A DNA stretch of 64,000 nt, from NCBI GenBank assembly GCA_029261855.1, contig JAJDAN010000011.1, positions 1-64,000 on the forward strand, in the 5' to 3' direction. Under the pieces are notes generated by a model, which saw only the letters and a list, made by a program, of their open reading frames with translations, was not told the DNA's origin and ran no database searches. Of the stretch, positions 24,095 through 34,782 are shown in pieces. The stretch's first letter is position 1; each line of letters starts with the position of its first letter. Made by a program: the position numbers and the translations under genes. Source of the stretch: Deltaproteobacteria bacterium (GTDB lineage: Bacteria; Myxococcota_A; UBA9160; UBA4427).

Positions 24095-24775
24095 CTAACG
24101 GGGGGACCGGCCCGCAAGTGCGATCCCGAACAGACCAAGGACCATCATGCCCGCAGTGGTCGGCTCGGGCACCAGGGACACGCCGTCGATCTGGAAGTCG
24201 TAGTCGACGTCGGAGCCGGCTAGCAAAGCCGGCACCTCCACGCCGAACTGGACGTGGCCGACGTTGCTGAAGACCGCCGCATAGCTACTGCCTTCGAAGC
24301 TGACCAAATGTGGACTCGACACGGTGAGATCGAACACGATCTCGGTCCAGGTGTTCGGCAATACCGGTACGAACGCGATGGCAATCGCGCCGGGGAAGTT
24401 GGCCGGGCCGGACAAGCGCGAGAACACGTTCAAGGGAACCGGCGCGTCGTGGCGAACGAAGACGCTGAGCGACAGCACTCCCTCGACGATGTAGTTGCCC
24501 TCGAAGGCGCCTCCGCTCGAACCGAACTCGTCCTGAGCCCGCGCCGCGCTCAGCGTGTCTCCGGCGATGAAGGGCGCGAAATTGAAGCTCCCCGAAGCGT
24601 AGGCGCTGCCGTCCGGGCCTCCGGCCGGCACCCAGGACAACGGTCCCGTGCTGCCGGCGTCATACCAGTTCGATGCGTCGGCATCGAACCCTTCGGTGAA
24701 CGGAATCGTGGCCGACAGCGCGGGCGCGGCGGTCAAGGTGATCCACAGCAACGAAACACAGCTCATCACTCGCAT
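24095..24775 (-). CDS. PEP-CTERM protein, paralogue of the one at 25972-26730
   Basis: A 226-residue protein. The ATG at 24775 is used because AAAAGGAAGAGACG precedes it; the frame opens at 24796. A signal peptide precedes a beta-type body and a clear PEP-CTERM tail (VPEPTTAG, hydrophobic stretch, GRSPR). The body aligns by eye with the protein at 25972-26730: both start near PF-x-E-x-F, carry GGPDGS, then VRHDAPV / VRHNAPV, TWTEI/TWTEL, and V-x-HVQ(F/L)G before the sorting tail. It lies 155 bases past exbD, separated by a hairpin, and may have its own transcript. Likely a surface or matrix protein linked to the heme locus. Confidence 0.88.
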   Translation of the reverse strand: MRVMSCVSLLWITLTAAPALSATIPFTEGFDADASNWYDAGSTGPLSWVPAGGPDGSAYASGSFNFAPFIAGDTLSAARAQDEFGSSGGAFEGNYIVEGVLSLSVFVRHDAPVPLNVFSRLSGPANFPGAIAIAFVPVLPNTWTEIVFDLTVSSPHLVSFEGSSYAAVFSNVGHVQFGVEVPALLAGSDVDYDFQIDGVSLVPEPTTAGMMVLGLFGIALAGRSPR

Positions 24776-24880
24776 CGTCTCTTCCTTTTCTTTCATCTCT
24801 TCGACCCGGATCGGGTCGCCTTGGGGTCCCGGCTGGCGCCATCGCGTTGTGAAATCGCGGGCTGGCTACGGACGATCGAT

Positions 24881-24929: not shown

Positions 24930-25358
24930 TCAGTTACCGGACGCAGCGGCAACCTCGATGCCCACTCGGGTCAACCCGTGCGAGCGCGCGAGGTCGAGCA
25001 CCTCGACCACCTGCCCGTGACGGGCCTCGGTGTCGGCGCGAACCACGAGTTCGGTCACCCCGGCGGCGGCGTCCGCGGCGGATGCGAAGCGTTCGGCAAG
25101 CTCTGCGGTGGTGACGGCCTCTCCGTCCAGGCCGAGCCCACCCGCCGCCTCGACTGTCACCACGACGAGGCTGGGCGATGCAATCTCTCCGGACTGCGCC
25201 TCCGGTAGCTCGAGGTCCATGCGCGGGGCAGCGAAGGATGTCGTGACCAAGAAGAATATCAGCAGCAGGAGCACGACATCGAGCAACGGCGCCAACCCCA
25301 GCTGCGCCTCCTCCAGGTCGTCGGCGGCGAGCCTCAAGGCGACACCATCCCGCCGCAC
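24930..25358 (-). CDS. exbD: ExbD/TolR biopolymer transport protein
   Basis: A 142-residue protein with one membrane helix carrying the essential Asp (GLAPLLDVVLLLLIFFLV) and a small periplasmic domain. With ExbB it converts proton motive force into TonB movement. A GTG at 25358 gives a 25-base overlap with exbB. A TTG at 25337 would give a TTGA overlap and is an alternative start. ExbD rather than TolR is preferred because the gene sits in a heme-uptake operon and TonB is encoded at the other end of the locus. Confidence 0.9.
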   Translation of the reverse strand: MRRDGVALRLAADDLEEAQLGLAPLLDVVLLLLIFFLVTTSFAAPRMDLELPEAQSGEIASPSLVVVTVEAAGGLGLDGEAVTTAELAERFASAADAAAGVTELVVRADTEARHGQVVEVLDLARSHGLTRVGIEVAAASGN

Positions 25359-25981
25359 CCTCGGGCTTCGCCGAAGAGGCGATCGAGCACAGCCTCCAAC
25401 TGCAGCACACGGTCGTCGACCCGACGTCGCAGGATCGCGTGAAAGAGCAAGGTCGGTATGCCCACACCCAGGCCCGCCGCAGTCGTGACGAGTGCCTGGA
25501 AGATGCCGCCCGCAACGACCTTCGCGTCACCGACGCCGACCTCGGCGATGAGCTCGAATGCCTGGATCATGCCGAGTACGGTTCCGAACAGTCCCAGCAT
25601 CGTCGCGATGTTGGCGAGGGCAGCGAGCAGGGGAAGGTTTCGCCGCAGCAGCCTCAGCTCGGCGTCGGCCGATTCCTCGACGCGTTCGAGCGGGCGCTCC
25701 TTCCCGCGCTCCACCGCCAGGATGCCGATGTGTGACAGGCGGGCCAGGACCGAGGAGCTCCGTTCACAGCGCGCGAGCGCCGCGGACGGACTGGCCGGAT
25801 CCCACACGGCGACGAGTTCGCGCACGAGTCTCCGCGGGACCACCGCGGCGCGCCGCAACACCCACGCACGCTCGAGGACGAGCGTCGTCGCAGCGAGCGA
25901 GCAGAGCGCAAGGCCGTGCATGACCGGGCCACCCAGGTGGTACCAGCCCGACAGCGTGTGGGCGATGCCATTCAGCTCCAC
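25334..25981 (-). CDS. exbB: ExbB/TolQ proton-channel protein
   Basis: A 215-residue protein with three membrane helices and the MotA/TolQ/ExbB signature GLFGTVLGMIQAFELI. The second conserved helix is GGIFQALVTTAAGLGVGIPTLLF. The GTG start follows GGAGG at 8-base spacing and lies inside the last codons of the upstream PEP-CTERM gene (10-base overlap). It forms the stator complex with ExbD that energises TonB for outer-membrane heme import. Confidence 0.92.
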   Translation of the reverse strand: MELNGIAHTLSGWYHLGGPVMHGLALCSLAATTLVLERAWVLRRAAVVPRRLVRELVAVWDPASPSAALARCERSSSVLARLSHIGILAVERGKERPLERVEESADAELRLLRRNLPLLAALANIATMLGLFGTVLGMIQAFELIAEVGVGDAKVVAGGIFQALVTTAAGLGVGIPTLLFHAILRRRVDDRVLQLEAVLDRLFGEARGCGGMVSP

Positions 25982-26730
25982 CGGTGCAGCCTCCTTCGCG
26001 CCAGCAGTGCGAGCCCGCCGATGCCAGCAAGTAGCATCCAGCTCGCGTCGGGCTCCGGTACGAGAGCCACCTTGTCGACGTCGAAGGTGACGAGCGTGCC
26101 GTCGCTGATCAGGACGGCCGGTGCGTCCGTGCCGAGCTGCACGTGAGCGACGTTCGTCAGGGCATTGAGACAGGTGAAGGCGGGATTGCTCGATTCAGGG
26201 ATGCAGTACGGAGAAGCGGCATCGACCTCGAAGATGAGCTCGGTCCAGGTGTCCGGCGGCACGACCGGATCGACGGCGTCGAAGGCGGCCGCGGGAAAGT
26301 TGAAGGTATTGGCGATTCGCAGGATCCACGCCACGTCGACGGGCGCGTTGTGACGAACCCAGACGTGCAGCTCCGTTACGCCTGCGGCATCCCAGTTGCC
26401 CTCCAGCTGGGCGTTGCTCGCCATGTTCTCGTCGTGCGCGCGAATGACGATCGGGCCCGCACCCGGGAAGGGCTCGATGAATTCCGTGAAGTCGAACTCG
26501 CTGTAGGCGAAGCTGCTTCCATCGGGGCCTCCGCTCGGCTCGAAAGACAGCAGGAAGCCCGTGTTGTCCGTCCAACCGGACTCGTCGAGTGCGAAATCCT
26601 CGACGAAGGGGACCGTCTGCGCGGAGACGGCGGCGGCAGTCACCAGGCAGCCCAAAGCCGAAGCGACGGCACCGTGGAGGGAGAGGACCCGGGCAAGACG
26701 GCGGAGACGCGTGCGGGATGCCCGGCTCAC
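25972..26730 (-). CDS. PEP-CTERM protein embedded in the heme-uptake operon
   Basis: A 252-residue protein. Its GTG start overlaps the stop of the upstream unknown gene (GTGA), and its end overlaps exbB by 10 bases, so it is locked into the operon. An Arg-rich n-region precedes a signal peptide (VASALGCLVTAAAVSAQ), a beta-type body, and a PEP-CTERM tail VPEPDASW, hydrophobic stretch, ARRRLHRW. The body is paralogous to 24095-24775, with an extra Cys pair region (YCIPESSNPAFTC). The coupling suggests that this surface-sorted protein works with heme import, perhaps as a heme-capturing or receptor-associated factor. No known heme-binding domain is recognised. Confidence 0.88.
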   Translation of the reverse strand: MSRASRTRLRRLARVLSLHGAVASALGCLVTAAAVSAQTVPFVEDFALDESGWTDNTGFLLSFEPSGGPDGSSFAYSEFDFTEFIEPFPGAGPIVIRAHDENMASNAQLEGNWDAAGVTELHVWVRHNAPVDVAWILRIANTFNFPAAAFDAVDPVVPPDTWTELIFEVDAASPYCIPESSNPAFTCLNALTNVAHVQLGTDAPAVLISDGTLVTFDVDKVALVPEPDASWMLLAGIGGLALLARRRLHRWS

Positions 26731-27397: not shown

Positions 27398-28204
27398 TCA
27401 CATCTCGCGGATCGGATCCGCCGGGCCGCGCAGCTCGACGCGCAGGCGACCGTCTTCCTTGTGGACGCGCGCATCGACGGCAAAGACGTCGCGCAGCATC
27501 TCGCGAGACAGACAGCTCGCGGGCGCGCCCGCTTCGTAGAGCCGACCCCTGTGCAGGATGCAGAGGCGATGCGCCAGGGCCGCCGCCTGCTCGAGGTCGT
27601 GCAGCGAAACCACCAGGGTGACACCGCGCTCGCGGTTGATGCGCGCCAGGATCTCGAGTAGCTCCCACTGATGGCGCAGGTCGAGAGCCGCGGTCGGCTC
27701 GTCGAGCAACAGGATCTCGGCTTCCTGGGCGAGCACCATCGCCAGCCATGCGCGGCGCCGCTCGCCACCGGAAAGCGTCTCGAGTGGGCGTTTGCGCAGG
27801 TCGCCGAGCTCCATGGCGCGCAGCGCTTCCCTTACGGCCACTTCGTCCCGGCGCTGCGCCGTCCCGAACGCGCCGACGTGGGGATAGCGGCCCTGGCGAA
27901 CGAGCGCTTCGACCGTCAAGCCTTCGGGCCCGACGGGTTCCTGGGGCAGGCGAGCGACGCGCAGCGCCAGCCGGCGGGGCCCGATCCGGGTGATGTCGGC
28001 TCCGTCCAGCCGAACCCGACCTTCGCGCGGTCTCACCTCGCCGCTCAGCGACCCGAGCAGGGTCGACTTGCCTGATCCGTTGGGGCCCACGAGGGCGACG
28101 ATCTCACCGGGATGCACGGCGAGGCTCACGTCGCGCACGCTGTCCCGATCGGCGCCGGCGTGGCGCAGACACACTCTGTCCGCCCGAAGGACTGCGGTGT
28201 TCAC
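27398..28204 (-). CDS. hmuV: heme ABC transporter ATP-binding protein
   Basis: A 268-residue ATPase. The Walker A motif GPNGSGKST, the signature LSGGERRR, Walker B ILLLDEPTAAL and the switch His in VSLHDLEQ are all intact. The best family match is HmuV/FecE-type importers. The GTG at 28204 follows GAGGAAAGTCGC. It powers heme passage across the inner membrane with the HmuU permease. Ten bases separate it from hmuU. Confidence 0.92.
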   Translation of the reverse strand: MNTAVLRADRVCLRHAGADRDSVRDVSLAVHPGEIVALVGPNGSGKSTLLGSLSGEVRPREGRVRLDGADITRIGPRRLALRVARLPQEPVGPEGLTVEALVRQGRYPHVGAFGTAQRRDEVAVREALRAMELGDLRKRPLETLSGGERRRAWLAMVLAQEAEILLLDEPTAALDLRHQWELLEILARINRERGVTLVVSLHDLEQAAALAHRLCILHRGRLYEAGAPASCLSREMLRDVFAVDARVHKEDGRLRVELRGPADPIREM

Positions 28205-28214
28205 GCGACTTTCC

Positions 28215-29237
28215 TCACGCGACCTTCCTCCACAGCAGGCTCAGGAAATAGGGTCCGCCGACCAGCGCCAGCAGCGCGCCCACCGGAAGCTCGAGCGGCC
28301 GCAACGCCGTACGCGCGGCCGCATCGGCTGCGAGCACCAGGGCCGCGCCGCCGACCGCCGAAAGTGGCAGCAGCAGGGCATGGCCTGGTCCGGCCCACAC
28401 ACGCACGGCGTTGGGCACGACGAGTCCAACGAAGCCCACGAGGCCGGCAACACTGACTGCCCCCGCCGCCAGCAGCGCGGCCACGCCCGAGATCGCAATG
28501 CGTGCCGACCGGACGCTGAGCCCGAGCCCCCCGGCGCTGACGTCGTCGAGCAACATGACGTCGAGCGGCCGCAGGTAGACGAGCGCGAGCGTCAGCCCGA
28601 CGAAGGTCGGCACCGCGATGGTCAGGGCATCCGTCCATCCGAGACCGTTGAGCGAGCCGACGAGGAACGAGGCGAAGGCGGGCGCGCGGTCGGCGTACGC
28701 GAAGGTCAGCAGCGAGAGCAGCGCGAACAACATCGCCTGGACCGCCACCCCCGACAGCACGATCCGCAACGGACCGATCGCACGCCCGGGGCGCCACGCC
28801 AGGGTCAAGAGCAGGACGATCGTGACCGCGCCTCCGATGAAGGCGACCCCCGGGAGCCAGCGAGTCAGGTCCGGGAAGAAGATCAGCAGCACCAAGGCGC
28901 CGAGACCGGCACCGGCGGTCACCCCCAGCAGACCCGGGTCCGCCAGCGGATTGCGGACAACGGTCTGGAGCAGCGCACCGGACACCGACAGCGCAGCCCC
29001 CACCAACGCCCCACACACCACCCGCGGCAGCCGCACGTCCCACAAGACTGCGTGCATCGGGTCGCTCGAATCGGCAATCGCGCGCAGGACGCGTCCCGGT
29101 GCCAGCTCGAGTGCGCCGAGCAGGGATGCCGCGCCCGCCGTCACTGCCAGCAGTCCGCAGACGACGGCGAGCCGGAAGCCCGGGATCTCCCGCGCACGGG
29201 CTCCGCGCAGGCGAACGGCGGCGGCGAATCGTTTCAC
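28215..29237 (-). CDS. hmuU: heme ABC transporter permease (FecCD family)
   Basis: A 340-residue protein with about ten helices. FecCD/BtuC landmarks are RLPRVVCGALVGAALSVSGALLQTVVRNPLADPGLLG near residue 70 (motif shortened in sense: RLPR...NPLADP), and GLVGFVGLVVPNAVR later. It forms the inner-membrane channel for heme. Its ATG overlaps the stop of hmuT by 4 bases. Confidence 0.9.
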   Translation of the reverse strand: MKRFAAAVRLRGARAREIPGFRLAVVCGLLAVTAGAASLLGALELAPGRVLRAIADSSDPMHAVLWDVRLPRVVCGALVGAALSVSGALLQTVVRNPLADPGLLGVTAGAGLGALVLLIFFPDLTRWLPGVAFIGGAVTIVLLLTLAWRPGRAIGPLRIVLSGVAVQAMLFALLSLLTFAYADRAPAFASFLVGSLNGLGWTDALTIAVPTFVGLTLALVYLRPLDVMLLDDVSAGGLGLSVRSARIAISGVAALLAAGAVSVAGLVGFVGLVVPNAVRVWAGPGHALLLPLSAVGGAALVLAADAAARTALRPLELPVGALLALVGGPYFLSLLWRKVA

Positions 29238-30127
29238 GGGGCGGTCGCCACCGACGCCGGTGCCAGAGAGACGAGCGCCCGGGCGGCGGACGCCATGCCG
29301 AGCCCCGGGTTCGCGGCGAACAGCGCAGGGTCGAGCACCTCCACGGTCGCGGCCTGCTGCAACCCCCGCCAGGCACCACCGGCCTGGATTCGCCGTTCGA
29401 GGGCAGCGCGGATCGCATCCGGGTCGCCGTGGGAAACGAGCAGGACCAGGTCGGGGGTCAGTCCGGCCACCACCTCGTCGCTCAGCGCAACCAGTCCAGG
29501 GAAGCGCTCGGCCCCCGCCACCGCCGGGGACGCGTTCTCGAAGCCGAGCTGCCCAGCCAGGTCCCCCAGCCAGGTACGCTCGGTCATCGCATAGAAGGTG
29601 CCCGGGGCGCCGAACAGCACCAGCACGGTTCGCGGTTGCTCGAGCGACGCCTCGGCAATGGTCAGACGCACCGCATCGACGCGAGCCTGCATGGCGCCCT
29701 GCCCGCCCACGCGACGCCCCAGCTCGACCAAGCCAGCGAACGTTGCGTCGACGCTCGAGGTGTCGAGCAGTAGGACCTCGGCTCCGGATCGCGCCAGCTG
29801 CGAACGCAGTCGTGCGTGCAGACCCGCGTCGCCAACAGTGAGGTCCGGGCGAGCCGCCGTCAGGGCTTCGAGGTTGGGCGAGTGCGGGCTGCCGAGATCG
29901 GCGACGTCCGCCCGGGTGGGTGCATGCAGGCTACGCCGGACGGACGCGACGAGGACGGCATCCCCCGGCGCCTCGCGCAGGGCGTCCTCTACGAAGGGAA
30001 GCAGGGTCGCGACGCGTACCGAGGTCGCCTCTTCCTCCCCGAACGCGGCGGCTGCGAAAGCCACCGCGAGCAGTGACGCCAGCCCCACCGACGCGAATCG
30101 GCGACCTGCGGATGACCCGAACCTCAT
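29234..30127 (-). CDS. hmuT: heme ABC transporter substrate-binding protein
   Basis: A 297-residue periplasmic protein: signal peptide (LASLLAVAFAAAAFG) and a class III (helical-backbone) binding fold. SPHSPNLEALTAARPDLTVGD is the first-lobe motif of HmuT/BtuF-type proteins; FPGLVALSDEVVAGLTPDLVLL lies in the second lobe. It shuttles heme from the outer-membrane receptor to HmuUV. Its start overlaps the stop of the HutX-like gene (ATGA). Confidence 0.87.
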   Translation of the reverse strand: MRFGSSAGRRFASVGLASLLAVAFAAAAFGEEEATSVRVATLLPFVEDALREAPGDAVLVASVRRSLHAPTRADVADLGSPHSPNLEALTAARPDLTVGDAGLHARLRSQLARSGAEVLLLDTSSVDATFAGLVELGRRVGGQGAMQARVDAVRLTIAEASLEQPRTVLVLFGAPGTFYAMTERTWLGDLAGQLGFENASPAVAGAERFPGLVALSDEVVAGLTPDLVLLVSHGDPDAIRAALERRIQAGGAWRGLQQAATVEVLDPALFAANPGLGMASAARALVSLAPASVATAP

Positions 30128-30549
30128 GATGCCTCCTCCATGGCAACGCCCGGCTCGAGCGCGGCGTGCAGTTCCAGGAACTGCTTCTCGCGTGCGACGC
30201 CGAAGTCGGCGTCCTTGTCGCGGTACAAGTAGATCGAGAGAAAGGGCTTCTCGTCCGCGCCCTCCGCGAGTTCGAAGAACAGCACCCGGCGGCCCGAGCG
30301 GGCGTGCACCGTGTCCCGACTGCGCAAGTGGCGGAAGCGTCCAAGGTCGACGTGCCAGTGATAGGCGTCCGTCATTGCGTTCATGTGACCGCGAGCGATC
30401 CCGAACGGGCCGAAGTCACACAAGGCCTCGAACACCGAGCCGCCCGAGATCGAAATGATGCGGAGCGGGCTCAGCCCACCCAGGCACGCAAAGAAGCGCT
30501 GATGGGTCCAGGCGGACGCCGAGGGACGACGGGGTTCGAGAGCAGCCAA
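30124..30549 (-). CDS. HutX/ChuX-like cytoplasmic heme carrier (tentative)
   Basis: A 141-residue protein, first in the leftward operon. The TTG at 30549 sits six bases after GAGGAG. The sequence has the general pattern of HutX/ChuX/HemS-half proteins: an early LRIISISGGSVFEAL, a central HWHVDL with candidate heme-ligand His residues, then RRVLFFEL and FLSIYLYRDKD. These proteins carry heme from the importer to a heme oxygenase or store. The similarity is by eye and modest, but the operon position (directly before hmuT) supports it. Confidence 0.6.
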   Translation of the reverse strand: MAALEPRRPSASAWTHQRFFACLGGLSPLRIISISGGSVFEALCDFGPFGIARGHMNAMTDAYHWHVDLGRFRHLRSRDTVHARSGRRVLFFELAEGADEKPFLSIYLYRDKDADFGVAREKQFLELHAALEPGVAMEEAS

Positions 30550-30651: not shown

Positions 30652-30678
30652 AAACGAAATTGAAAGTCAATTTCGTTT
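30652..30678. promoter_or_regulatory. palindromic operator (Fur-type) between the two heme operons
   Basis: A perfect inverted repeat with 12-base arms (aaacgaaattga / tcaatttcgttt) around a 3-base centre, in an AT-rich island within GC-rich DNA. Its core 19 bases match the classical 9-1-9 Fur box at about 13 positions by eye. It lies 103 bases from the HutX-like start and 123 bases from the receptor start, so one repressor (Fur, or an Irr/other metal regulator) could control both directions. Confidence 0.75.
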
Positions 30679-30800: not shown

Positions 30801-32906
30801 TTGGTTCGTGCCTCATTGCTGCTGGTCTGTCCCTTGATCGCGCTCCTGGCGCTGCTCGCCGGCCCGGCCCGCGCGACGGACGACGACGTGCCGCGTGCGG
30901 ACGACATCGTGGTGCGAGCGTGTACCCAGCAGCCGGCCGAAGTGTTCCAGGCGACGCCAGTGGAGACCGAGGTGCTGACCCTCGAAGAAGTCGAGGCCCT
31001 GCCCGCCCGGGACGTCGCAGACATCGTCAAGCGACTGCCGGGCATTCGGGCCCAACCTCGCGTCCAGGGACAAGAGGCAGCGGTCTCCATCGAGGGCATG
31101 CCGCCGGAGTACACGCTGCTGCTCGTGGACGGTCAGATCTACAGCGGCGAGCTCGGCGGCGTCGGCGATCTGCACGACATTCCTCTGACCAACATCGACC
31201 GCATCGAGATCCTGCGCGGCGCCCAGGCGCTGCGCTACGGCAGCGAGGCCGCCGGTGGGGTCGTCAGCGTGATCACGCGGCTCCCGCCGACGGACGGCTT
31301 CGAGTCACGCTTTCAGGCTGGTGCCGGCGACCAGGGATTCGTGCAGGTGCAGGCCGTCGCGGGCCTGGGTGACGAAGTGATCGGAGGCAGCCTCGCCTAC
31401 ACCCAGGACCAGATCGACGGCTTCGATGCACCAAGCGACACCGAGGCGGTACTCGTCGGCGCCGGCAAGGATTCGGACGGCGTTTCCCGGGACGGCAACG
31501 CGCAGCTGCGCTGGCAACCCCGAGACGACGTCACGGCGATGACGCGATTCGGCTATCGCCGGGAGCACGAAGCCCTGCGCTTCGAGGACGACATCACGAC
31601 CTTCCGAAGCGATGGTCGCTGGCGCGCCGAGCAGACACTCGAATGGCTGGGCGACGACAGCCGCGCCTTCGGCTCGCTCTTCTACTACCGCAACGAGCTC
31701 GAGTCTTCGTCCGGGCGATCCTTCGAGCTCGATGAAGACGAATGGAAGCTCGACGGGGTCTTCGATCACTTCTTCGAGACCGGACCGGTCTCCCACGCGG
31801 TGTCCATCGGCTTCGACGCCCGGCTCGAGCGGATCCGCCTGCACGAATCGGCGTTGCGCTTCGACCCCGACACGGGCGACAGCAGCTCGGTCCCCCTTAC
31901 CCGCGAACGCATCCAGCGCGGCGCGCTCTACGCCATCGCCGAGAGCGAGGTCACGCGCTGGCTCACCTTCGAGGCAGGCGTACGCGGCGAGTTCAGCAGC
32001 GAGTTCGACCCCGCGGCCGTCCCCCAGATCGCGCTGCTCGTGACTCCCTTCGATTCCCTCAAGCTGCGCGCGTCCTGGGGCGTGGGGCACCGCGCTCCTT
32101 CCCTGCGCGATCTCTACCAGCCTCCCGTCCCGCAGCTCGGGGGCGCGTACTTCCTGGCGGGCAATCCCGACTTGAAGACCGAATCGTCCACCTCGTATCG
32201 CCTGGGCTTCGAGTGGACCCCGGACCGCCGCATCTCGCTCGCAGGCACCTGGTTCTACAACTCCATCGACGACCACATCCGCTCGACTCCGGACGGCGTG
32301 GTTCCACTGGGGACGGTGACGCTCCCGCCGGTACCCGTCGACACGGGGCGGCCCGGTCTCGATCTGATCTGCGGCTCCACCGACTTCTTCTTTCCCGAGT
32401 GCGGCGAGAGCCAGACGATCCTCATCACCTCGCAGCTCTACCGGAAGACGAATCTCGACACGGTACGCACCCAGGGCTTCGAGACCCGCCTCGAGCTGCG
32501 CCCCCACGAACTCGTGCTGGGTCAGCTCGGATACACGTTCCTCGAGACGAAGGTCGTGGATTCGACCCTGATCGGCCTCGACGAGCTGCCCAACGAGGCG
32601 AAACACACCGTCGACGCCCTGCTCCAGCTGGACGTCCCAAAGCTCGACGCGAGCATCGCGTTGACGGGTCGCTGGCGCAGCGGCGCGCTCACCGAGACCA
32701 GCGGCACCGGTCTCATCGGCTTCACGAGCAACCGCAAGTCCGACGATTCGTTCGTGCTCGACCTGCGCGTGGTGCAACCCCTGCCCTACCGCCTCGCACT
32801 CTTCGCCGACGTCTTCAACGTCACCGACGAACGGGTGGTCGATTCGTACGTGGTCCGCGGCCGCAGCTTCTTCGTGGGCCTTCGAGGAGAGATTCCATGG
32901 TGGTAG
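30801..32906 (+). CDS. TonB-dependent outer-membrane receptor (heme receptor)
   Basis: A 701-residue protein with signal peptide (LLLVCPLIALLALLAGPARA), a plug domain (about 35-165) with DIVKRLPGIRAQPRVQGQEA and IDRIEILRGAQALRYGSEAAGGVV, and a 22-strand barrel ending in an aromatic GEIPWW. ADDIVV just after the signal peptide is a candidate TonB box. Heme as substrate is inferred from hmuTUV, hemP and the HutX-like gene. The TTG start at 30801 has only a weak ribosome site; TTG at 30816 is possible. Ends inside the start of the next gene (10-base overlap). Confidence 0.9.
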   Translation: MVRASLLLVCPLIALLALLAGPARATDDDVPRADDIVVRACTQQPAEVFQATPVETEVLTLEEVEALPARDVADIVKRLPGIRAQPRVQGQEAAVSIEGMPPEYTLLLVDGQIYSGELGGVGDLHDIPLTNIDRIEILRGAQALRYGSEAAGGVVSVITRLPPTDGFESRFQAGAGDQGFVQVQAVAGLGDEVIGGSLAYTQDQIDGFDAPSDTEAVLVGAGKDSDGVSRDGNAQLRWQPRDDVTAMTRFGYRREHEALRFEDDITTFRSDGRWRAEQTLEWLGDDSRAFGSLFYYRNELESSSGRSFELDEDEWKLDGVFDHFFETGPVSHAVSIGFDARLERIRLHESALRFDPDTGDSSSVPLTRERIQRGALYAIAESEVTRWLTFEAGVRGEFSSEFDPAAVPQIALLVTPFDSLKLRASWGVGHRAPSLRDLYQPPVPQLGGAYFLAGNPDLKTESSTSYRLGFEWTPDRRISLAGTWFYNSIDDHIRSTPDGVVPLGTVTLPPVPVDTGRPGLDLICGSTDFFFPECGESQTILITSQLYRKTNLDTVRTQGFETRLELRPHELVLGQLGYTFLETKVVDSTLIGLDELPNEAKHTVDALLQLDVPKLDASIALTGRWRSGALTETSGTGLIGFTSNRKSDDSFVLDLRVVQPLPYRLALFADVFNVTDERVVDSYVVRGRSFFVGLRGEIPWW

Positions 32907-33913
32907 ACGCAGCGACGGTCCGGCTCATCTCCACGCTGATCGCGCTCGTCGCGCTGACGCCGGGCACGATCGCCCATGCCGAGGACGTCCTGATCCAGGA
33001 CGGCATCGATTCCGCACCCTACTCGTTCATCCCGTCGCTTCCCCGTGGCCTGCGCGACACGCAGTACCTGTTCTCCGGCGAAGACGACGACGGTGTGCAT
33101 CACGACTTCCGCACCTTCGTCCGATTCGACCTGCCCGAAGACCTCCTGGGCCCGGACGAGACCGTGCTCGAAGCCTATGCGTGGGTCTACTACAGCTTCG
33201 ACTTCGGGGGCTTCGGAGACGCGAGCAAAGTCCCGGGTGAAATGCACTGTCACGAGGTCCTCGGGGACTGGCAGGAGCACACCCTCACCTGGGTCAACCA
33301 ACCGGCATACGGGCCCGCCTTCGACGCCCATCCGGACATCGAGGACCTGGGCCTGCTGTGGTGCGACGCCAGCGAACTCGTGCGCCGCTGGGCCACGGGC
33401 GCCACACCCAACTACGGCATCGCGCTCACCAATGCGACAGAGCGACTGATCGGCACGTATTCCTTCGAGGCGTTCCAGGTAGACCCCAACTTCCGGCCCA
33501 GTCTCGTCGTGTCGGTCGGCCCGAGCGAAGCCCTGGACCTCGACAGCGACGGCATCGCAGACCCCGGCGACAACTGCCCGCATACCGCCAACCCCGCACA
33601 GCAAGACAGCAACGGCGACGGCTTCGGCGACGCCTGCGCGTTCGAACTGGCCGATCTCGACGCCGACGGTCTGGTCGACGGGAACGACCGGCGACTGTGG
33701 AGAGCGGCTCGGGGCAGTGTCGCGGGCGAGCCCGGATACGACCCGGCTTGCGACCTCGACGAGAACGGTCGCATCGACGCAGCCGACCAGACGCTCTACG
33801 CCGCCCTCTACAGCGAGAACTTCACGGGCGGCATGAGCTGTGGGTTGATCGGCATCGAGGTCGGAGGCGTGCTGGCGGTCGCTCGGCGGCGGCGACGGAG
33901 GCACACGCGATGA
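32897..33913 (+). CDS. DNRLRE / thrombospondin-3 / dockerin-like surface protein with Cys-polyArg tail
   Basis: A 338-residue secreted protein; the ATG follows AGGAGAGATTCC inside the end of the receptor gene. After a signal peptide (residues 1-32) comes a DNRLRE-type beta domain of about 170 residues (TFVRFDLPEDLLG, DWQEHTLTWVNQPAYG). Then a thrombospondin type 3 Ca-binding repeat follows (DLDSDGIADPGDNCP...DSNGDGFGDAC), then two dockerin-like Ca loops (DLDADGLVDGNDR, DLDENGRIDAADQ). The C-terminus is a single Cys, a short hydrophobic run and RRRRRR, resembling the MYXO-CTERM type of sorting tail. It sits between the heme receptor and hemP (ATGA overlap), so it is probably a surface component of heme uptake. 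Confidence 0.85.
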   Translation: MVVDAATVRLISTLIALVALTPGTIAHAEDVLIQDGIDSAPYSFIPSLPRGLRDTQYLFSGEDDDGVHHDFRTFVRFDLPEDLLGPDETVLEAYAWVYYSFDFGGFGDASKVPGEMHCHEVLGDWQEHTLTWVNQPAYGPAFDAHPDIEDLGLLWCDASELVRRWATGATPNYGIALTNATERLIGTYSFEAFQVDPNFRPSLVVSVGPSEALDLDSDGIADPGDNCPHTANPAQQDSNGDGFGDACAFELADLDADGLVDGNDRRLWRAARGSVAGEPGYDPACDLDENGRIDAADQTLYAALYSENFTGGMSCGLIGIEVGGVLAVARRRRRRHTR

Positions 33914-34122
33914 CGAACGAAAAGAAGACCGACACGACCGGGAACGCGACCCCGGCAGAGGAGCACGCAATGCAAACAAGAACATCCGGACGCGAGGGTG
34001 CGGTCGAGATCGTGCGGGCCGAGACCTTGCTCGGTACGCGCGGCTTGCTGCACATCGAGCACGAAGGCGAGCGGTACACCCTACGGCTCACGAAGAACAA
34101 CCGACTGATCCTGACGAAGTAG
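33910..34122 (+). CDS. hemP: hemin uptake protein HemP
   Basis: A 70-residue protein whose second half matches HemP: RAETLLGTRGLLHIEHEGE, YTLRLTKNNRLILTK. HemP proteins are small partners or regulators of heme-receptor expression in proteobacteria. The ATG overlaps the stop of the DNRLRE protein (ATGA); an internal ATG at 33970 would give a shorter form closer to the usual length. This gene is the strongest evidence that the locus handles heme rather than a siderophore. Confidence 0.9.
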   Translation: MTNEKKTDTTGNATPAEEHAMQTRTSGREGAVEIVRAETLLGTRGLLHIEHEGERYTLRLTKNNRLILTK

Positions 34123-34128
34123 CGTCCG

Positions 34129-34782
34129 ATGGCGGAGATCTCGGATCGCAGACTGCTCGCCGCCCTGGTGTTCGCCGTGTGGCTCCACGTCGGGGTATTC
34201 GCGGTGGCGCGTGATTGGACGGCAAACGAGCCCCGGCCCCCGCGCCGGACCGAACCGCTTCGCGTGGAAATCGTCCGGGCGCCCGCCCCCGTACCCGCGC
34301 CGCTCGTCGTCTCCGCCCCGCCGCCGCCACGCATCCCCACGCCCCGCCGTGCACCCGCACCCTCACCTGCACCGCGGGAGCCGCGACGCCCCGACCCCGC
34401 GCCGGAGGTCGAGAGCGCCGCGCTGGAAGCTCCCGCAGCGCCCGCGGTCGCCGCGGCAGCACCCGCTACGAGGGCTGCAACTGCCCCGCAGGCGGCATCC
34501 GCCGAGCACGCAGACAGTTACCTCGAACGCGTGGGTCGAATGATCGAAGCCCAGCGCCGCTATCCCCACGCGGCCCGTCGTCGACGTCTCGAAGCCGTCG
34601 TGGTACTGCGATTGACCATCGCCGGCGACGGCAGCGTTCGCGACGCACACACGCTGGGCGACGCGCCCCGGATCTTCGAACGCGCTTCCCTGGCGGCGGT
34701 CGCGGACGCAGCACCCTTTCCGAGTCCGCCGGCCGGCTTCGACGAAATGGAGATCGCGATCCGCTACGAGATCGATCGCTGA
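34129..34782 (+). CDS. tonB: TonB energy-transducing protein
   Basis: A 217-residue protein: N-terminal membrane anchor (LLAALVFAVWLHVGVFAV), a long Pro/Ala/Arg-rich periplasmic spacer (about 38-125), and a C-terminal TonB domain with YPHAARRRRLEAVVVLRLTIAGDGSV and FPSPPAGF. It links ExbBD to the receptor. Six bases after hemP, last gene of the rightward heme operon; a hairpin follows. Confidence 0.92.
   Translation: MAEISDRRLLAALVFAVWLHVGVFAVARDWTANEPRPPRRTEPLRVEIVRAPAPVPAPLVVSAPPPPRIPTPRRAPAPSPAPREPRRPDPAPEVESAALEAPAAPAVAAAAPATRAATAPQAASAEHADSYLERVGRMIEAQRRYPHAARRRRLEAVVVLRLTIAGDGSVRDAHTLGDAPRIFERASLAAVADAAPFPSPPAGFDEMEIAIRYEIDR

Follow-up and report, generated by a model that had tools for sequence, protein, structure and literature searches.

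Known PEP-CTERM proteins are associated with EPS and flocs, and their delivery to the cell surface is in the literature itself largely an inference (PMC9850573). Beyond exopolysaccharide and floc formation, the functions of PEP-CTERM proteins are mostly obscure. Surface capture of haem has been described in other systems; hemophilin HphA and its receptor HphR, for example, are both products of the hemO locus of A. baumannii (PMC8560813). In environmental phyla of the Myxococcota, Planctomycetota and Verrucomicrobiota type, haem capture is poorly described, and we found no link of PEP-CTERM proteins or exosortase to haem uptake in the open-access literature. Here we analyse PEP1 (25972–26730, minus strand), a PEP-CTERM jelly-roll protein of 252 aa encoded in the window, the 64,000-nucleotide stretch of myxococcal DNA under study. 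PEP1 is a haem-locus protein, probably placed at the surface, in which both the fold and the sorting signal are unexpected. We put the probability at roughly 55% that an exosortase sorts it to the surface as a dedicated component of haem uptake, encoded in an operon under Fur control, and perhaps as a capture factor for haem or haemoproteins.

A two-armed haem-uptake locus

The minus-strand arm of the locus encodes, in order, a ChuX/HutX-like cytoplasmic haem-trafficking protein (30124–30549), an HmuT-like periplasmic binding protein (29234–30127; best NCBIfam match IsdE, 1.6e-19, under its cut-off), an HmuU-like FecCD permease (28215–29237; 3.9e-81), an HmuV-like ABC ATPase (27398–28204, by Pfam and NCBIfam searches), P0003 (26727–27362), PEP1, ExbB of the MotA/TolQ/ExbB family (25334–25981; PF01618, 1.7e-28), ExbD (24930–25358; PF02472, 7.6e-26) and PEP2, a paralogue of PEP1 (24095–24796). 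The plus-strand arm encodes a TonB-dependent receptor (30801–32906; PF00593, 3.3e-38, and PF07715, 1.5e-22), a DNRLRE/TSP3-repeat secreted protein (32906–33913; NF033679, 2.1e-18), the haemin-uptake protein HemP (33931–34122; PF10636, 1.1e-14), which is the only HemP copy of the genome, and TonB (34129–34782; PF03544, 3.8e-10). The ChuX/HutX-like product gave a profile match to the 5exv HemS/ChuX domain (E 4.5e-7) that spans the whole domain, whereas its Pfam score is under threshold (best member E 0.17). A TonB receptor, TonB-ExbB-ExbD, HmuTUV and haem-specific proteins are thus combined in one locus, and the two-armed PEP1 locus is a haem-uptake locus. The first-pass annotation had placed PEP1 in a haem/TonB setting, and the HemP, ChuX-like, HmuTUV, TonB-ExbB-ExbD and receptor genes around it agree with that placement.

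An alternative ligand was considered at this point. PEP1 could capture another iron or metal-tetrapyrrole ligand, such as a siderophore or cobamide, instead of haem; the NCBIfam scores of the TonB receptor are best for the B12 receptor family, above the haem receptors, with all of them under cut-off, and FecCD transporters serve several ligands. However, HemP, the ChuX-like protein, the HupZ/HugZ-like protein described below and the haem oxygenase and HmuS companions of relatives point to haem, and no cobalamin riboswitch was found in the window's locus or in seven related loci. A cobalamin locus is ruled out by the missing riboswitch and the haem-specific companions, and we regard the broader reading of a ligand other than haem as improbable.

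The divergent promoter region between the arms contains a perfect 8-3-8 inverted repeat (GAAATTGAAAGTCAATTTC, 30656–30674, no strand assigned) that matches a general Fur box consensus at 13 of 19 positions. The chance expectation for such a palindrome in the window is 0, and a related 19-mer was present in every locus of the order that was scanned. Fur-like 7-1-7 boxes with a score of at least 15 were found upstream of 9 of 66 PEP family genes and 8 of 626 control genes (p ~5e-6), several of the Fur-box control genes being themselves from the same modules or from haem promoters. The predicted Fur-like operator suggests that the locus is iron-controlled through Fur.

P0003 (minus strand), listed as unknown in the first-pass annotation, has no sequence match in Pfam or NCBIfam. 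AlphaFold2 models it as an FMN-type split barrel (pLDDT 86). In the fold search HupZ scored best (Z 13.4; 125 residues aligned at rmsd 2.1), and HugZ (Z 10.0) and HutZ (Z 9.8) came lower in the list; histidines are conserved in the motif VWWHNTLFHG. P0003 resembles HupZ, HugZ and HutZ in fold and in haem-locus setting, but not by a Pfam or NCBIfam sequence match. Because comparable Z values are reached by many flavin proteins that are unrelated, a haem role for P0003 rests on fold together with context. With a HupZ/HugZ-like split barrel as its predicted structure, P0003 is a candidate for a new haem-degrading or haem-binding family. The P0003 family is well conserved in the order and is represented by no Pfam or NCBIfam model.

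Gene order and gene overlaps around PEP1

The GTG at 26730–26728 is the sole usable start of PEP1, and the gene ends with TGA at 25974–25972. The start shares the tetranucleotide GTGA with the stop of P0003 (TGA, 26729–26727), and the end extends 10 bases (GTGGAGCTGA) into exbB, whose GTG start is at 25981–25979; both overlaps had been reported in the first-pass annotation, and the coordinates bear them out. The further claim that PEP1 is locked into translational coupling with exbB did not hold. Most relatives have 80–130 bp between the upstream stop and the PEP start, and the distance from the PEP stop to the exbB start ranges from tens of bases to ~130 bp. Other genes of the same operon also overlap, by 4 bases at the ChuX-like/binding protein (30124–30127) and binding protein/permease (29234–29237) junctions and by 25 bases between exbB and exbD (25334–25358), and exbB has a good Shine-Dalgarno sequence of its own, AAGGAGG at 25996–25990, within PEP1 and 8 nt before its GTG. 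In a relative of the same genus (L067) an in-frame GTG exists at −4, and an ATG at +17 is an equally good start. Given the gaps in relatives, the overlaps elsewhere in the operon and the separate ribosome site of exbB, the overlap is trivial; its interpretation as a conserved regulatory device is ruled out by the gaps at both junctions in relatives. The double overlap is ordinary operon packing, a local detail that is not common to relatives, and gene order, not overlap, is the conserved feature.

Of 61 genomes of the order, 12 have a strong PEP1 homologue, in each case within this haem locus and adjoining P0003, HmuV or ExbB-ExbD. A 284-genome sample of the phylum yielded one further strong homologue (G277), again at this locus, and in that sample strong matches were confined to this order. 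The arrangement TonB receptor / ChuX-like – HmuT-U-V – split-barrel protein – PEP protein – ExbB – ExbD is kept in 13 of 13 genomes with HemP and TonB close by, HemP being present in nearly all complete loci of the order; in G053 the PEP gene comes after ExbD. P0003 occurs more widely, in 18 of the 61 genomes. Three of these (G008, G009 and G056) have P0003 without an adjoining PEP gene, and the PEP gene is therefore not essential to the locus; three more (G036, G041 and G059) have a short or ambiguous contig or flank that leaves the PEP neighbour undecided. Weak matches at 25–35% identity (L033–L037) are other PEP-CTERM proteins that lack this locus. Four further weak relatives from the same order (L142, L143, L144 and L147; E 1e-11 to 1e-16) represent another PEP-CTERM subfamily and had no haem-locus protein in the short flanks that were checked.

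These data bear on whether PEP1 is simply a passenger, one of many PEP-CTERM genes lying in the operon by chance and coupled to exbB by accident. The source genome is indeed rich in such genes, with 51 PEP-CTERM matches and seven exosortases (PF09721 matches), and overlaps are common in the operon. Against this, the gene occupies the same position in 13 genomes that represent several families of the order, and the operon holds PEP2 as a further copy. A chance neighbourhood is ruled out by the synteny, and a passenger role for PEP1 is very improbable.

Sorting signal, cysteine pair and fold of PEP1

The PEP-CTERM model PF07589 matched residues 224–247 of PEP1 with 25.4 bits, above the Pfam cut-off of 20.7, and the C-terminal PEP motif, hydrophobic helix (residues 229–251 in the model) and basic tail are all present. 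The N-terminus is basic and continues as a hydrophobic stretch, helical in the model, to AAAVSA-Q; a signal peptide of approximately residues 1–37 was assigned by inspection only. The intervening body (residues 38–223) matched no known domain by sequence in Pfam, NCBIfam or PDB profiles. Conserved positions in it are E44, W53, R97, W113, H127, R138, W162 and Q198.

PEP2, encoded downstream of exbD, is ~40% identical to PEP1 and forms its sister clade in the tree, the two standing as Myxococcota sisters apart from the other phyla. The body of PEP1 contains two cysteines, C176 and C187, both of which are missing from PEP2, as the first-pass annotation had observed. In the alignment, every Myxococcota PEP1 copy located directly after P0003 has both cysteines, and the pair is missing from all PEP2 sequences, from the G053 copy and from all Planctomycetota and Verrucomicrobiota copies. 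It had been proposed that the pair forms a disulfide or a ligand site. The pair is a lineage trait, probably a disulfide stapling one loop in the Myxococcota form of PEP1. A core ligand site of the family is ruled out by the confinement of the pair to Myxococcota PEP1 orthologues; judged from the alignment, the PEP family does not need it.

A structural model of PEP1 built from a 55-sequence alignment (pLDDT 91) is a jelly-roll β-sandwich. Among the fold matches listed, the best are a mannanase module (Z 13.8), CBM11 (12.8) and CBM22 (12.4), with laminin IV domains at Z ~10–12. Comparison with hemophores had been recommended in the first-pass annotation; the model returned a common jelly-roll fold, and HasA, NEAT, HmuY and hemophilin were not among the best 50 matches listed (Foldseek, VIA-align). 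A HasA, NEAT or HmuY fold was set aside as less likely on the matches listed. The usual ligands of such jelly-rolls are carbohydrates or proteins, and the common fold by itself is no proof of function for PEP1.

The fold matches raise the main rival explanation, in which the jelly-roll is a CBM that fixes exopolysaccharide or a cell-surface glycan, so that PEP1 would act as an adhesin or biofilm factor under iron limitation, or as a scaffold keeping the haem machinery in the EPS, and would never touch haem. CBM modules are the best fold matches listed, and the literature connects PEP-CTERM proteins with EPS and flocs (PMC9850573). However, no Pfam CBM family matched any of 14 members at E values up to 10, and a gene order as specific as this one, fixed within the haem locus in all 13 genomes of the order, exceeds what a generic adhesin would require. 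The distribution of relatives in other phyla, described next, also has a bearing on both sides of this explanation, which on balance we consider unlikely.

Relatives in other phyla and comparison with known systems

Relatives were collected from one genome per species, giving 66 loci, of which 10 are Myxococcota-type and 56 are others, mostly from Planctomycetota and Verrucomicrobiota; Bythopirellula polymerisocia (L080) is among the species represented. Within flanks of at most 10 kb a side, haem-specific genes were present in 12 of the 56 non-myxococcal loci and no haem gene was found in the remaining 44. The many planctomycete copies without nearby haem genes are in keeping with glycan binding; the independent association with haem oxygenase, HmuS or HemP in other phyla argues against it. 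Haem oxygenase and HmuTUV accompany the relative in six loci (L114, L121, L122, L126, L130 and L132; L114 haem oxygenase PF01126, 3e-21, with homologues of it in the other five), HmuTUV and HmuS in three (L081, L127 and L129; the L129 HmuS is a HemS match at 8e-79), HmuS in L125 and haem oxygenase in L089; in L078, HemP is divergent from the PEP gene. The PEP gene is directly downstream of HmuS in L129, L127, L081 and L125. The Verrucomicrobiota set forms one clade in the tree. Since there are several separate arrangements with different companions, the haem association is not one inherited block. The first-pass annotation had named a common fold with no ligand pocket, combined with occurrence mostly outside haem loci, as the outcome that would count against its proposal: the fold is a common one, but strong homologues in Myxococcota are all inside haem loci, with 12 of 56 relatives elsewhere beside haem genes.

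In loci without haem genes the stable neighbours are a partner protein, whose family cluster covers 28 loci, and a prepilin-like N_methyl protein. Four genes fuse the partner domain, with the motif DRWMYPFN, to a PEP-family body without PEP-CTERM (L127, 9863–11497; L129, 10028–11677; L128, 10010–11695; L125, 181–1815), and in L127, L129 and L125 the fusion gene directly follows HmuS. Additional features of these loci were also observed. Across L078–L115 a third gene with a prepilin-type N_methyl signal, in some cases DUF1559, recurs just downstream of PEP and is sometimes followed by DUF4198; the resulting small PEP/N_methyl/DUF4198 module of Planctomycetota often lies behind Fur-like boxes. 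One Burkholderiales MAG (L124) also has a member of the family, preceded by a Fur-like box that scores strongly (GAGAATAATAATCGTTATC); because this member groups with Verrucomicrobiota it is taken to be a transfer or a mis-binned contig. In the window, the DNRLRE/TSP3 protein, whose gene separates those of the TonB receptor and HemP, may correspond in Myxococcota to the partner protein of other phyla.

The PEP-CTERM signal, the fixed gene order in the haem locus and the haem neighbours of relatives in other phyla together make PEP1, in all likelihood, a member of the haem-uptake system, and haem scavenging probably has in it an outer-surface part that was not described before. That PEP1 itself captures haem or a haemoprotein is a guess, to which we give slightly less than even weight. 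In the reading of PEP1 as a sorted haem-uptake component, iron limitation would cause Fur to let go of the operon, Sec would export PEP1, and exosortase would process it at the PEP motif and so leave it set in the outer surface or exopolysaccharide layer. Like hemophilin, the jelly-roll may then catch haem or a haem-bearing macromolecule for the TonB receptor, and so concentrate it locally; HmuTUV would bring the haem in, and the ChuX-like protein and P0003 would handle or degrade it. More tentatively, the family could constitute a new haem-capture class, in which exosortase-sorted jelly-rolls outside the outer membrane would receive haem or haemoproteins for uptake through TonB. The class would span Myxococcota, Verrucomicrobiota and Planctomycetota, and in the latter two phyla it would work together with a prepilin-like protein and with a partner protein that is fused to it in some cases. 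Because the family is linked to haem loci in three phyla, exosortase sorting gains a definite function that can be put to the test, and the proposal, if true, would extend surface haem scavenging by one more fold and one more route of delivery.

PEP1 can be compared with three kinds of known system. With the floc protein PepA and other PF07589 exosortase substrates it shares a putative signal peptide, the C-terminal PEP motif with hydrophobic segment and basic tail, and the presence of exosortases in the genome; however, the known substrates are tied to exopolysaccharide and flocs, whereas the PEP1 family is found in haem-uptake operons, and PEP1 matches no NCBIfam PEP-CTERM family above cut-off, the sorting signal excepted. 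With CBM11, CBM22 and laminin IV domains it shares the jelly-roll topology over ~140–160 residues (Z 10–14), but at ~6–17% identity, with no Pfam match and in a different genomic setting. In the hemophilin HphA-HphR, HasA-HasR and HmuY-HmuR systems, as predicted for PEP1, a secreted or surface protein is encoded in a haem locus next to the genes for a TonB receptor and a haem-degrading enzyme. PEP1 differs from these in its predicted jelly-roll in place of the hemophilin, HasA and HmuY folds, in that its haem binding is a proposal, and in its export route, an exosortase signal taking the place of the Slam, type I secretion or lipoprotein anchoring used in systems of the hemophilin, HasA and HmuY type.
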